In this document: one piece after another, positions 26,591 to 30,921 of the stretch | How the letters are laid out: each line of letters starts with the position of its first letter | Numbering within the stretch: position 1 is the stretch's first letter | Assembly (NCBI RefSeq): GCF_020297055.1 | Contig: NZ_JAIXCQ010000012.1 | Location: forward strand, 1 to 64,000 | DNA: 64,000 bases | Direction: 5' to 3' | From: Isoptericola luteus | Lineage (GTDB): Bacteria > Actinomycetota > Actinomycetes > Actinomycetales > Cellulomonadaceae | Made by a program: the position numbers and the translations under genes | Notes under the pieces: model-generated | The model's input: the letters and a program-made list of their open reading frames with translations, nothing else | Databases searched by the model: none | What the model was told of the DNA's origin: nothing

Positions 26591-27892
26591 TCAGGTGGAC
26601 GCCGGGAGGGGCGCGGACTCATCGTCAGCCTCCTGCGACGACGGTGGGTGCGCGAGACTTTTTGTGACCCGGGGCCGGGTGCGTCCGGCGAGCACGGCGG
26701 CCGACGCGGCGAGGAGCGCACCCAGCGCGAGGCACACGGCGTACGCGCCCAGCCCGAGGTGGTCCCGCAGGGGCCACAGCACGGCGCCGGTGACGGAGAG
26801 GGCCGCGGCGGCCGCGGCGGTGTCGGCCACCTGGAGGGCGGACATGGTCGTGCCCTGCCCGTTCGTGGGCGCGAGCTCGAGCGCCAGCAGGCTGAGGGTC
26901 GGGTAGGACAGCCCCATGCCGAGGCCGGCCAGGGCCCAGGGGGCAGCCCCGACCGCCAGCGGGACGCCAGGCACCGTCACGAGCGCGACCCCCGCGACCC
27001 CGGCCGCGAGGCTGGCCCCGCCGAGGCGCAGGAAGCCGGCGTGGGACAGCCCGCGAGCGCCCCGGCCACGGAGCCAGGACCCGGTGGACCAGCCGAGGAC
27101 GTGCAGGGTCAGGACGGCACCCGCGACGGTGGGGGCCAGACCGCGCTCGTGCACGAGGGCCAGCGGCACCAGCACCTCGGCCCCGACGAACGCGGCCGAG
27201 AGGAGCACGCGGACCAGGACGACGGTGCCCAGCCCGCGGGCCCCGCGCAGGACCGGTCGCACGATGTCGCGCACGGGCACCGGAGCAGTGGGCTCTGCGG
27301 CGCCGGTGGGGTCGTCGGGACCCCGGGCGGCGTGGAGGCCGGGTCGCAGGGCGAGCAGCGCCGGGAGCGCCAGCACCGGCACCGCCAGGAACACCCACCG
27401 CCAGCCCAGGTGCTGCGTGACGAGGCCCGCGACCAGGGGGCCCACCACGCCGGGAACCACCCATGCGGCCGCGAACCAGGCGAAGACCTTCGGCCGGCGG
27501 GTCTCCGGGAAGACCTTGGCGACCAGGACGTACAGGGCGACGCCCTCCAGCCCGGAGCCGACCCCCTGCAGGACCCGGCCGGCCAGAAGCACCCCCATGT
27601 CGGGCGCGAGCCCGGCCATCAGCAGGCCGGTGAGGAACAGGGCGATCCCCGTCCAGAGCACCGGCGTGGGGCCGCGACGGTCGGTCCAGCGGCCCGCGAC
27701 GACGATGCCGGCCACCGCGGCGGCCGAGGTGGCGGCGAAGGCGTAGGTGTACAGGCGCAGGCCGTCGAGCTCGGCGGCCACGGCGGGCATCGCGGTGGCC
27801 ACGGCCAGGGCCTCGAACGCGCCCAGCGCGATGTACGCCACCATCCCGACCAGCACGGTCCGTTGTGCCCGGGGTCCCAGGACGGCGGTCAC
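26591..27892 (-). CDS. MFS drug-exporter-like transporter
   Basis: 433-residue major facilitator with about 12 membrane helices. TM1 AYIALGAFEALAVATAMPAV resembles DHA-type drug exporters; the A-motif appears as GRWTDRRGPTP after TM2, and the motif-C-like segment VVPGVVGPLVAG is consistent with antiporters. GTG 27892 overlaps the stop of the upstream reductase remnant (GTGTGA), so translation is probably coupled to that leader ORF. Expected role: export of a redox-cycling or toxic compound under SoxR control (inference from the box upstream). Confidence 0.86.
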   Translation of the reverse strand: MTAVLGPRAQRTVLVGMVAYIALGAFEALAVATAMPAVAAELDGLRLYTYAFAATSAAAVAGIVVAGRWTDRRGPTPVLWTGIALFLTGLLMAGLAPDMGVLLAGRVLQGVGSGLEGVALYVLVAKVFPETRRPKVFAWFAAAWVVPGVVGPLVAGLVTQHLGWRWVFLAVPVLALPALLALRPGLHAARGPDDPTGAAEPTAPVPVRDIVRPVLRGARGLGTVVLVRVLLSAAFVGAEVLVPLALVHERGLAPTVAGAVLTLHVLGWSTGSWLRGRGARGLSHAGFLRLGGASLAAGVAGVALVTVPGVPLAVGAAPWALAGLGMGLSYPTLSLLALELAPTNGQGTTMSALQVADTAAAAAALSVTGAVLWPLRDHLGLGAYAVCLALGALLAASAAVLAGRTRPRVTKSLAHPPSSQEADDESAPLPAST

Positions 27893-28020
27893 ACGAGCAC
27901 GACCTTGCCGGCGGTGCGATGCTCCTCGTCCTCGCGGTGCGCGCCCACGGCTCCGTCCGGGAGGCTCTCGACGAGGGAGCGCTGGAGCGGTCGGGCGGCA
28001 GGCCCGCAGACGGCGTTCAT
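27889..28020 (-). pseudogene. Remnant of a quinone oxidoreductase gene, now a 43-codon leader ORF
   Basis: This short ORF runs from ATG 28020 to TGA 27889. Its last 20 or so residues, GAHREDEEHRTAGKVVLV, match the usual C-terminal end of zinc-free NADPH:quinone reductases (AHR-x-ES-G-x-x-GKVVL), while the beginning MNAV resembles their N-terminus. About 270 codons in between are gone, and no NADPH-binding or catalytic domain remains. The ATG lies 6 bases after a -10 box within the SoxR-type promoter, so the mRNA starts at this codon. Its stop overlaps the start of the MFS gene, so the remnant may be retained as a translational lead-in for the operon (inference). It is too short for standard ORF lists. 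Confidence 0.65.
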
Positions 28021-28026
28021 GGGCCT

Positions 28027-28057
28027 ATCGTTGAACCTCGACTCCAGTTGAGGTCAA
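28027..28057 (-). promoter_or_regulatory. SoxR-type promoter of the remnant-MFS-BBE operon
   Basis: On the minus strand -35 TTGACC (28057-28052) and -10 AACGAT (28032-28027) are separated by 19 bp, the overlong spacing typical of MerR/SoxR-activated promoters. The start codon at 28020 follows the -10 by 6 bases. Confidence 0.7.
28036..28053. promoter_or_regulatory. SoxR box
   Basis: The 18-bp dyad CCTCGACTCCAGTTGAGG closely resembles the E. coli SoxR box CCTCAAGTTAACTTGAGG. It lies within the 19-bp spacer of the divergent promoter and 19 bp before the soxR ATG. Confidence 0.8.
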
Positions 28058-28071
28058 GGGGTGTGCGAAAG

Positions 28072-28551
28072 ATGTCGCCGAAAGGGGCCAACCCGGTGCC
28101 GTGGGACCACACCGAGCTGAGCGTGGGCGAGGTGGCGGCTCGCAGCGGGGTGTCGGTGTCCGCCCTGCACTTCTACGAGCGGCAGGGGCTCATCACCAGC
28201 CGGCGGACCGCGGGCAACCAGCGGCGCTACCGGCGCGACGTGCTGCGCCGGGTCGCGTTCGTGCGGGTGTCCCAGCGGGTCGGCGTCCCGCTCGCCCGGA
28301 TCGCCGAGGCACTGTCGACCCTGCCGGACGACCGTGCCCCCAGCGTGCGTGACTGGGAGCGCCTGTCGCGGACCTGGCGCACGGAGCTCGACGCGCGCAT
28401 CGCCCAGCTCCAGCGCCTGCGGGACGACCTCACCGACTGCATCGGCTGCGGCTGCCTCTCCCTGAGCCGGTGCGTGCTCGCCAACCCGCGCGACGAGATG
28501 GGCGAGGAGGGCCCGGGGCCCCGTCGGCTCCTGGTCGACGAGCCGGGCTGA
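28072..28551 (+). CDS. soxR: Redox-sensitive transcriptional activator SoxR
   Basis: MerR-family [2Fe-2S] regulator of 159 residues. Winged HTH ELSVGEVAARSGVSVSALHFYERQGL (15-40) with NQRRYRRDVLRRVAFVRVSQR, a dimerisation coiled coil about 92-121, and the cluster motif CIGCGCLSLSRC: Cys123, Cys126, Cys128, Cys134 in the SoxR spacing CX2CXCX5C. Oxidation of the cluster by redox-cycling compounds activates target promoters in other bacteria. ATG 28072 gives the usual length. It is divergent from the remnant-MFS-BBE operon and shares the SoxR box. No soxS is present, consistent with actinobacteria where SoxR acts directly on export and reductase genes. Confidence 0.95.
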   Translation: MSPKGANPVPWDHTELSVGEVAARSGVSVSALHFYERQGLITSRRTAGNQRRYRRDVLRRVAFVRVSQRVGVPLARIAEALSTLPDDRAPSVRDWERLSRTWRTELDARIAQLQRLRDDLTDCIGCGCLSLSRCVLANPRDEMGEEGPGPRRLLVDEPG

Positions 28552-28591: not shown

Positions 28592-29038
28592 ATGACTCAG
28601 GTGCTGATCCTCAACGGACCCAACCTCGGCCGGCTCGGCGTGCGCGAGCCGGAGATCTACGGTCACCAGTCGATGGCGGAGCTCGAGCGCGCGGCGGCGC
28701 GGTGGGGTGCGGACCTGGGCCTCGAGATCGACGTGCGGCAGACCGACGACGAGGCGACGCTCGTGGGCTGGCTGCACGAGGCGGTCGACGCGCGCGCCCA
28801 CGTGATCCTCAACCCTGCAGCCTTTACCCATTACAGCTACGCGCTGCGGGACTCCGCCGCGCAGGTGACGTCGGCCGGCCTGCTGCTCGTGGAGGTACAC
28901 CTGTCGAACCCGGCTGCCCGCGAGTCCTTCCGCCACTACTCGGTGGTCGCAGGGATCGCCACGGGCACGATCGCGGGGTTCGGGTTCGGTTCCTACCGGC
29001 TGGCGGTCCAGGCGATCAGCGACAAGCTTGCAGACTAG
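28592..29038 (+). CDS. aroQ: Type II 3-dehydroquinate dehydratase
   Basis: Dehydrates 3-dehydroquinate, step 3 of the shikimate pathway. 148 residues, the usual length of the dodecameric type II enzyme. LILNGPNLGRLGVREPEIYG includes the catalytic Arg/Tyr loop; ILNPAAFTHYSYALRDS carries the Asn and the Thr-His-Ser/Tyr segment; VEVHLSNPAARESFRHYS includes the catalytic His. It has its own leaderless-type promoter and is separated from aroEC-KB by 8 kb of accessory genes. Confidence 0.96.
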   Translation: MTQVLILNGPNLGRLGVREPEIYGHQSMAELERAAARWGADLGLEIDVRQTDDEATLVGWLHEAVDARAHVILNPAAFTHYSYALRDSAAQVTSAGLLLVEVHLSNPAARESFRHYSVVAGIATGTIAGFGFGSYRLAVQAISDKLAD

Positions 29039-30357: not shown

Positions 30358-30921
30358 GTGGCTACCACCAACGACATCAAGAACGGCACCGTGCTCCGCA
30401 TCGACGGTCAGCTCTGGTCGATCATCGAGTTCCAGCACGTCAAGCCGGGCAAGGGTGGGGCGTTCGTCCGCACGAAGATGAAGAACGTGGTGTCGGGCAA
30501 GACCGTCGACAAGACGTTCAACGCAGGGCTCAAGATCGAGACCGCGAACGTGGACCGCCGCGACTTCCAGTACCTGTACATGGACGGCGACGACTACGTG
30601 TTCATGGACACCGCCACGTACGACCAGATCACGGTCCCGGCCGCCACCGTCGGCGACGCCAAGGACTACATGCTCGAGGGCATGAACATCATGGTCGCGT
30701 CGAACGAGGGCACCCCGCTCTACGTCGAGCTGCCGTCGTCGGTCGTCCTCGAGATCACCTACACCGAGCCCGGCCTGCAGGGCGACCGCTCCACCGGCGG
30801 CACCAAGCCCGCCACCGTGGAGACGGGCGCCGAGATCCAGGTCCCGCTGTTCCTCGAGCAGGGCACCAAGGTCAAGGTCGACACGCGTGACGGGTCGTAC
30901 CTCGGCCGTGTGAACGACTGA
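30358..30921 (+). CDS. efp: Elongation factor P
   Basis: Relieves ribosome stalling at polyproline stretches. 187 residues in three beta-barrel domains. The domain I loop reads [16 protein letters not shown], with the exposed Lys that is modified in some bacteria; no modifying enzyme genes are nearby. The C-terminal signature is [20 protein letters not shown] start. nusB follows after 14 bases in the conserved efp-nusB arrangement. Confidence 0.97.

Follow-up and report, generated by a model that had tools for sequence, protein, structure and literature searches.

We identify, in the 64,000-nt stretch of DNA analyzed here (the window), a soxR locus that appears to form a one-component switch: SoxR would control a divergent operon consisting of a quinone oxidoreductase (QOR) remnant, an MFS exporter and an EncM-like flavoprotein. 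We put the probability of this reading at roughly 85%. The switch is a genuine but largely familiar device of chemical defense.

The soxR gene and its divergent promoter

The soxR gene lies on the plus strand at 28072..28551, from an ATG at 28072 to a stop codon ending at 28551, and encodes a 159-aa MerR-family [2Fe-2S] redox sensor. The protein scores 225 bits against the TIGR01950 SoxR equivalog profile (cut-off 116.9); the SoxR structure 2zhg is its top-scoring solved structure (182 bits); and the C-terminal cluster motif CX2CXCX5C is complete (CIGCGCLSLSRC, with cysteines at positions 123, 126, 128 and 134), as had been claimed from the original reading of the locus. The motif is present in all 28 SoxRs examined, although only its last cysteine is an independent test in this count because the rows were picked by means of the motif C[IV]GCGC. 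The sole other match in the same genome at 1e-10 (C25:40323, residues 14-124 at 35%) was rejected as a second SoxR because it stops where the cluster cysteines (123-134) begin. Next after soxR comes a same-strand gene at 28592-29038 that we take to be type II dehydroquinase-like and, further on, a presumably EF-P-like gene at 30358-30921.

The divergent promoter occupies 28027..28057 on the minus strand, with a −35 element TTGACC at 28057-28052 and a −10 element AACGAT, which resembles TATAAT only roughly, at 28032-28027. Its 19-bp spacer contains the candidate SoxR box (28036..28053; CCTCGACTCCAGTTGAGG on the plus strand), an 18-bp imperfect dyad in which 7 of 9 pairs are symmetric and whose end is 18 nt from the soxR start. 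The order on the minus strand is thus TTGACC, 19 bp, AACGAT, 6 nt and an ATG at 28020; since the ATG follows the −10 element by only 6 nt, transcription is expected to begin at the start codon itself or right beside it, and the operon mRNA is probably leaderless. The original prediction had placed the dyad between these two hexamers, in a 19-bp spacer of a minus-strand promoter, and all of these positions are confirmed. It had also described the dyad as very close to the E. coli SoxR box: an 18-bp dyad of the CCTCAA...TTGAGG type is indeed present, but "very close" was too strong, as the identity to the E. coli box is 13 of 18 bases, compared with 16 of 18 for the Stenotrophomonas maltophilia mfsA box (both boxes as printed in PMC4411124, in the portion of that paper we draw on, where the mfsA box binds SoxR). 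An E. coli-type box at up to three mismatches occurs once in the window against a mean of 1.73 in shuffled sequences, so the dyad by itself proves nothing; the case for the box comes from its conservation at orthologous operons and its co-occurrence with SoxR.

The minus-strand operon

The operon begins with an in-frame ORF of 43 codons (27889..28020, minus strand), a remnant of a quinone oxidoreductase of the zinc-type alcohol dehydrogenase superfamily. It retains the first QOR codons and C-terminal pieces, and about three deletions have left its start and stop in the QOR frame; the breakpoints of these deletions are uncertain because the similarity is weak. Original and present readings agree in calling it a remnant: it is a shrunken gene that relatives retain whole, and at 43 codons, against 331-374 aa in those relatives, it does not amount to a functional first gene. 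The rest of the genome yielded no QOR orthologue (best match 39%), and the remnant has no Pfam or NCBIfam match at 0.001. We also considered a structured leader RNA within it and discarded the idea, since 195 of 200 shuffled sequences fold as well or better (z +1.85).

The remnant's stop overlaps the GTG start of the MFS exporter by 4 nt (GTGA). This exporter (P0003; 26594..27892, minus strand; 433 aa) matches Pfam MFS_1 at 135 bits and stays under the cut-off in all NCBIfam models examined, the best 25 of the 44 matched. The third gene (P0004; 25162..26544, minus strand) encodes a 461-aa BBE-type FAD oxidoreductase with Pfam FAD_binding_4 and BBE domains and an RSGGHS motif (His77), which in such enzymes bears covalent flavin. 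Among solved structures it matches EncM (273 bits; residues 20-460) and mitomycin radical oxidase (150 bits; residues 23-461) over nearly its full length, a likeness of sequence within a common BBE/FAD superfamily; the match to 6-hydroxy-D-nicotine oxidase is confined to its N-terminal half. Kinship to these three enzymes fits a redox-drug role, and it is plausible that the flavoprotein re-oxidizes a reduced quinone drug to a less reactive form.

Orthologous operons in relatives

The operon predicted in relatives consists of genes for a quinone oxidoreductase, an MFS exporter and an EncM-like flavoprotein. A full-length QOR (331-374 aa; zinc-type alcohol dehydrogenase superfamily in the one member tested) stands behind the soxR-side box in eight relatives; in seven of them the gene starts 6-7 nt past the −10 element, and in the eighth (L042) its start lies 85 nt away from that of the box. 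P0003 matches 9 and P0004 matches 5 of the 27 soxR stretches, counts in which some genes may lie outside a stretch; L036 has the BBE gene and no MFS match in its soxR stretch.

A protein search made independently of the box found the MFS orthologue in 7 of 18 genomes of the genus (64-77% identity in the six besides that of the window), and the box precedes either the MFS gene or a QOR gene preceding it in all seven (G000, G003, G010, G011, G013, G014 and G015). The check set beforehand, which was to look for the box before related MFS/BBE genes, therefore came out positive in every genus genome with an MFS orthologue. Together with the relatives of the BBE protein, these boxed orthologous operons support, at the level of sequence, the earlier reading of the operon as a redox-drug defense unit.

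In all seven relatives with adjacent QOR and MFS genes, the QOR stop shares 4 nt with the earliest possible start of MFS; in some relatives (L040, L041), the similarity to MFS starts some 120-135 nt into the ORF, which makes the overlapping start uncertain there. In G011 the QOR gene is gone, and the box is followed by the MFS gene, with its ATG 7 nt past the −10 element, and then by the BBE gene. In G014 (L218) and G015 (L216) the QOR-MFS-BBE operon is boxed and soxR is absent within the 9 kb stretch; regulation there would need to act in trans.

In a scan of a wider collection, 80 of 113 loci with MFS relatives were examined. Five combine 57-76% MFS identity with a box, but they come from genomes already considered (G003, G013, G014, G015 and G028) and are not independent. 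Of the 75 distant MFS relatives (34-44%), two have a box upstream of the MFS gene: L251, from a Microbacteriaceae MAG, and L292, from Actinocorallia, which also has soxR and a QOR at 50%. A third, L233, has a stray one-mismatch box match elsewhere than before the MFS gene, and the remaining 72 show no box match and no soxR match of 90 bits.

Co-occurrence of boxes with SoxR

SoxR was sought in 58 genomes, 27 of which have a close match (at least 150 bits), with one close SoxR in each. The soxR neighborhoods of 26 relatives (8.0-8.5 kb each) were compared, and in 24 there is, at or near soxR, a box (at most three mismatches) with a TTGACC-like −35 element (at most one mismatch); no box was recognized beside soxR in the other two, G031 (L038) and G051 (L052). 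The box faces soxR itself in G025 (L051) and lies about 0.5 kb from soxR in G019 (L040). The hexamers at the fixed 19-bp distance are mostly −10-like (CAGGCT, CAGGAT, CACGAT), and a few are poor (TGGAGT in L050).

A wider box pattern, TTGACCTSRASNNNNSTTSARS with one mismatch allowed, was written after the soxR-side boxes had been viewed, and its co-occurrence counts are partly circular because it was shaped on known boxes. It gave 92 strand-hits across the 58 genomes, against 7 for a reversed control (palindromic sites can score twice). Exact-pattern sites are present in 22 of the 27 SoxR-bearing genomes and in 1 of the 31 without a detected SoxR (Fisher 2.9e-10); when only sites away from soxR are counted, which is fairer given that the pattern derives from soxR-side boxes, the numbers are 13 of 27 and 1 of 31 (Fisher 9e-5). 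As the genomes are related, both p-values overstate independence. The single exception without a detected SoxR is G005, a 440-contig assembly. Boxes in G005 (L103, L104) precede sodA and a transketolase gene although its fragmented assembly yielded no SoxR. One-mismatch sites in other SoxR-less genomes (G018, G024, G027, G032, G034, G043, G045 and G049) look like chance or relics.

Proposed mechanism and alternative explanations

We propose that the predicted box, lying in a divergent-promoter spacer that is over-long at 19 bp, is bound by SoxR dimers. The genes, box, geometry, conservation and co-occurrence described above are features of the sequences; redox activation, autorepression and substrates are taken from known SoxR biology. 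By that analogy, the promoter would stay off with reduced SoxR; redox-cycling compounds would oxidize the [2Fe-2S] cluster, the DNA would be distorted, and the probably leaderless operon transcript would be switched on; the exporter would then remove the compound, and the flavoprotein would oxidize or modify it. As the box ends so close upstream of its own gene, SoxR may also limit its own synthesis.

One doubt about the locus arises from its first gene. Destruction of this gene means that the unit could be decaying, with QOR lost, promoter and box drifting, and MFS and BBE outside meaningful SoxR control; besides the reduction of QOR to 43 codons and the want of an orthologue elsewhere in the genome (best match 39%), the box differs from the wider pattern by one half-site change, and it is the weakest of the three boxes in its own genome (one mismatch to the wider pattern vs. 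none in the other two). We nevertheless consider decay improbable: both MFS and BBE are intact reading frames, the remnant still shares the GTGA overlap with MFS, G011 keeps box, MFS and BBE although it has no QOR, and the window's dyad shares 16 of 18 bases with the S. maltophilia box, for which binding is reported in the sections of PMC4411124 used here. That the dyad is a chance palindrome in an unregulated promoter is in our judgment very improbable indeed. A single match to the E. coli box at up to three mismatches in the window, where shuffles average 1.73, is in keeping with such an accident, but box, spacing and distance to the start codon are conserved at orthologous loci, and boxes co-occur with SoxR.

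A further proposal is compatible with the SoxR switch. The 43-codon ORF may have been kept on purpose, either as a leaderless leader that feeds ribosomes to the MFS start or as a small protein, and we entertain this only tentatively. The start, the stop and all alignable pieces have stayed in the QOR frame through about three deletions (though the similarity is weak), and the 4-nt overlap between QOR stop and MFS start is present in the window as in all seven relatives with adjacent genes. The ORF, however, is known from one genome only, has no Pfam or NCBIfam match at 0.001, and encodes a leader RNA that is not unusually structured (z +1.85); the overlapping MFS start is uncertain in L040 and L041; and G011 has arrived at a simpler solution, in which MFS starts directly past the promoter.

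Comparison with known SoxR systems

In E. coli soxRS, a divergent soxR, an 18-bp dyad in a 19-bp spacer and a [2Fe-2S] motif are found, all of which are common to the window. The E. coli SoxRS system works in two steps, whereas there is no soxS among the divergent genes of the window (remnant, MFS and BBE); SoxR would here act directly on effector genes.

The likeness to S. maltophilia soxR-mfsA is closer. According to the portion of PMC4411124 considered here, soxR stands head-to-head with an MFS gene, and the box, sharing 16 of 18 bases with ours, lies between the −35 and −10 elements of the exporter promoter and close to the soxR start; SoxR binding, soxR autorepression and a paraquat phenotype are reported, and reports of SoxR roles in sod regulation are mentioned. 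The binding and the paraquat phenotype are those of S. maltophilia; the system in the window is known from its sequence. In contrast to mfsA, the window has a QOR remnant before the MFS gene, a BBE flavoprotein after it and a probable leaderless start, and it belongs to an actinobacterium. For Streptomyces coelicolor, the portion of PMC4146615 considered here describes a six-gene SoxR regulon that includes a quinone oxidoreductase, SCO0320ext, bound in vitro, and states that soxR is not autoregulated; in S. avermitilis, a SoxR site precedes a putative transketolase gene, SAV_1623. SoxR directly targets effector genes there too, a quinone oxidoreductase among them, but the S. coelicolor targets are scattered and include an ABC transporter, with no MFS gene named in that portion (PMC4146615), whereas the window has one operon with an MFS gene. 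The terms "superoxide dismutase" and "leaderless" have no occurrences in the main text of PMC4146615. Among the matches listed for open-licence literature on SoxR with Cellulomonas, Isoptericola, leaderless or transketolase, there was no title on this regulon.

A divergent soxR-MFS pair has already been published, as have links of SoxR to quinone oxidoreductase and transketolase genes; the arrangement is of a known kind, closest to soxR-mfsA, and the discovery at this locus is modest. If the proposed switch is real, direct control by SoxR in actinobacteria reaches past Streptomyces and includes a concrete operon, in which an exporter combined with a flavoprotein resembling EncM and mitomycin radical oxidase suggests a way of disarming redox-cycling drugs.

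Probable remote targets and two SoxR lineages

The exact pattern occurs at two more places in the genome of the window: C1:199925, ahead of a split transketolase, and C25:206636, ahead of sodA. The same SoxR probably drives both the split transketolase operon and this second sodA copy in trans. P0005 is the N-terminal transketolase subunit, and the ORF that follows it, judged by its match to Transket_pyr, is the other half. The box and a probable leaderless start before the split transketolase lie at C1:199925-200669 (L033:4026-4773), and the divergent gene across this box is presumably a PoxB-like thiamine-diphosphate enzyme. A close transketolase orthologue (at least 66% identity) is boxed and has its ATG 6 nt past the −10 position in 17 of 17 genomes (12 and 5 in two locus sets), with some of the boxes at 2-3 mismatches to the symmetric motif.

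Boxed sodA genes, with the box 19-50 nt upstream of the start and carrying no more than one mismatch, were read in 12 genomes and, in a thirteenth (G028), taken from coordinates. Of 24 distinct unboxed copies read, 23 have at least four mismatches, and that of G024 has two; sodA loci without a start or a recognized start were left out (10 of 30 in one set and 8 of 18 in the other). The 5′ end of sodA occurs twice in the genome of the window, at C25:206636 (L090:2237) and at C24:2-145 (L194), with 138 of 142 bases identical; one copy has a SoxR-box promoter and lies at a contig end, and the other is unboxed and stands at a place conserved in the genus. Several assemblies have contig breaks within sodA, which is what a repeat would produce. 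Both copies are intact in G010, G016 and G017; there, the two coding sequences of each genome share 97.4-98.4% identity, compared with 53-65% for the flanks. Upstream flanks place the unboxed sodA at one conserved position in 10 of 10 genus genomes compared, while among eight boxed copies only those of G003 and G010 share a location. Gene conversion and repeated re-copying both fit the near-identity of the pair.

In a SoxR tree, the window protein groups with those of G003, G004, G010 and G013 and of five other genera (local support 0.99), and soxR adjoins the QOR operon in the genome of the window and in these four. The other 11 SoxRs of the genus form a separate group, in which soxR adjoins the transketolase gene in 10 of 11 genomes, G014 having lost the transketolase. 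Each genome has one close SoxR, yet the remote targets keep their boxes, and this single protein tree suggests that SoxR was replaced within the genus while the regulon was retained. The idea that the SoxR lineage sets the type of box, several transketolase boxes of lineage B ending in GAAC rather than GAGG, was considered; as the boxes examined before sodA and QOR in genomes of this sort end in GAGG, the ending looks promoter-specific.

Taken jointly, these observations could be read as follows, and on this larger picture we are evenly divided. In this genus, Isoptericola to judge by the named relatives, SoxR would directly run drug export and flavin oxidation, a leaderless split transketolase and an extra sodA; the latter, whose coding sequence gene conversion or repeated re-copying would keep nearly the same as that of the housekeeping copy and whose promoter differs, would provide a constant and a redox-inducible gene for one enzyme; and two SoxR lineages, each lying by a different target, would have been swapped with the remote boxes kept. 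The genome-wide boxes predict direct SoxR control of superoxide dismutase and transketolase, and such control would unite the drug-processing and superoxide-defense versions of the SoxR response.

Two loci of the genus depart from these arrangements. In G014 (L047:4474-4560), soxR still has the box and start codon beside it, but what follows is an ORF of only 17 codons and no transketolase; here too, a SoxR promoter may have been retained after the loss of its target. In G013, the boxed sodA (L101) follows its relatives for about 22 codons, then departs from them and is apparently broken.
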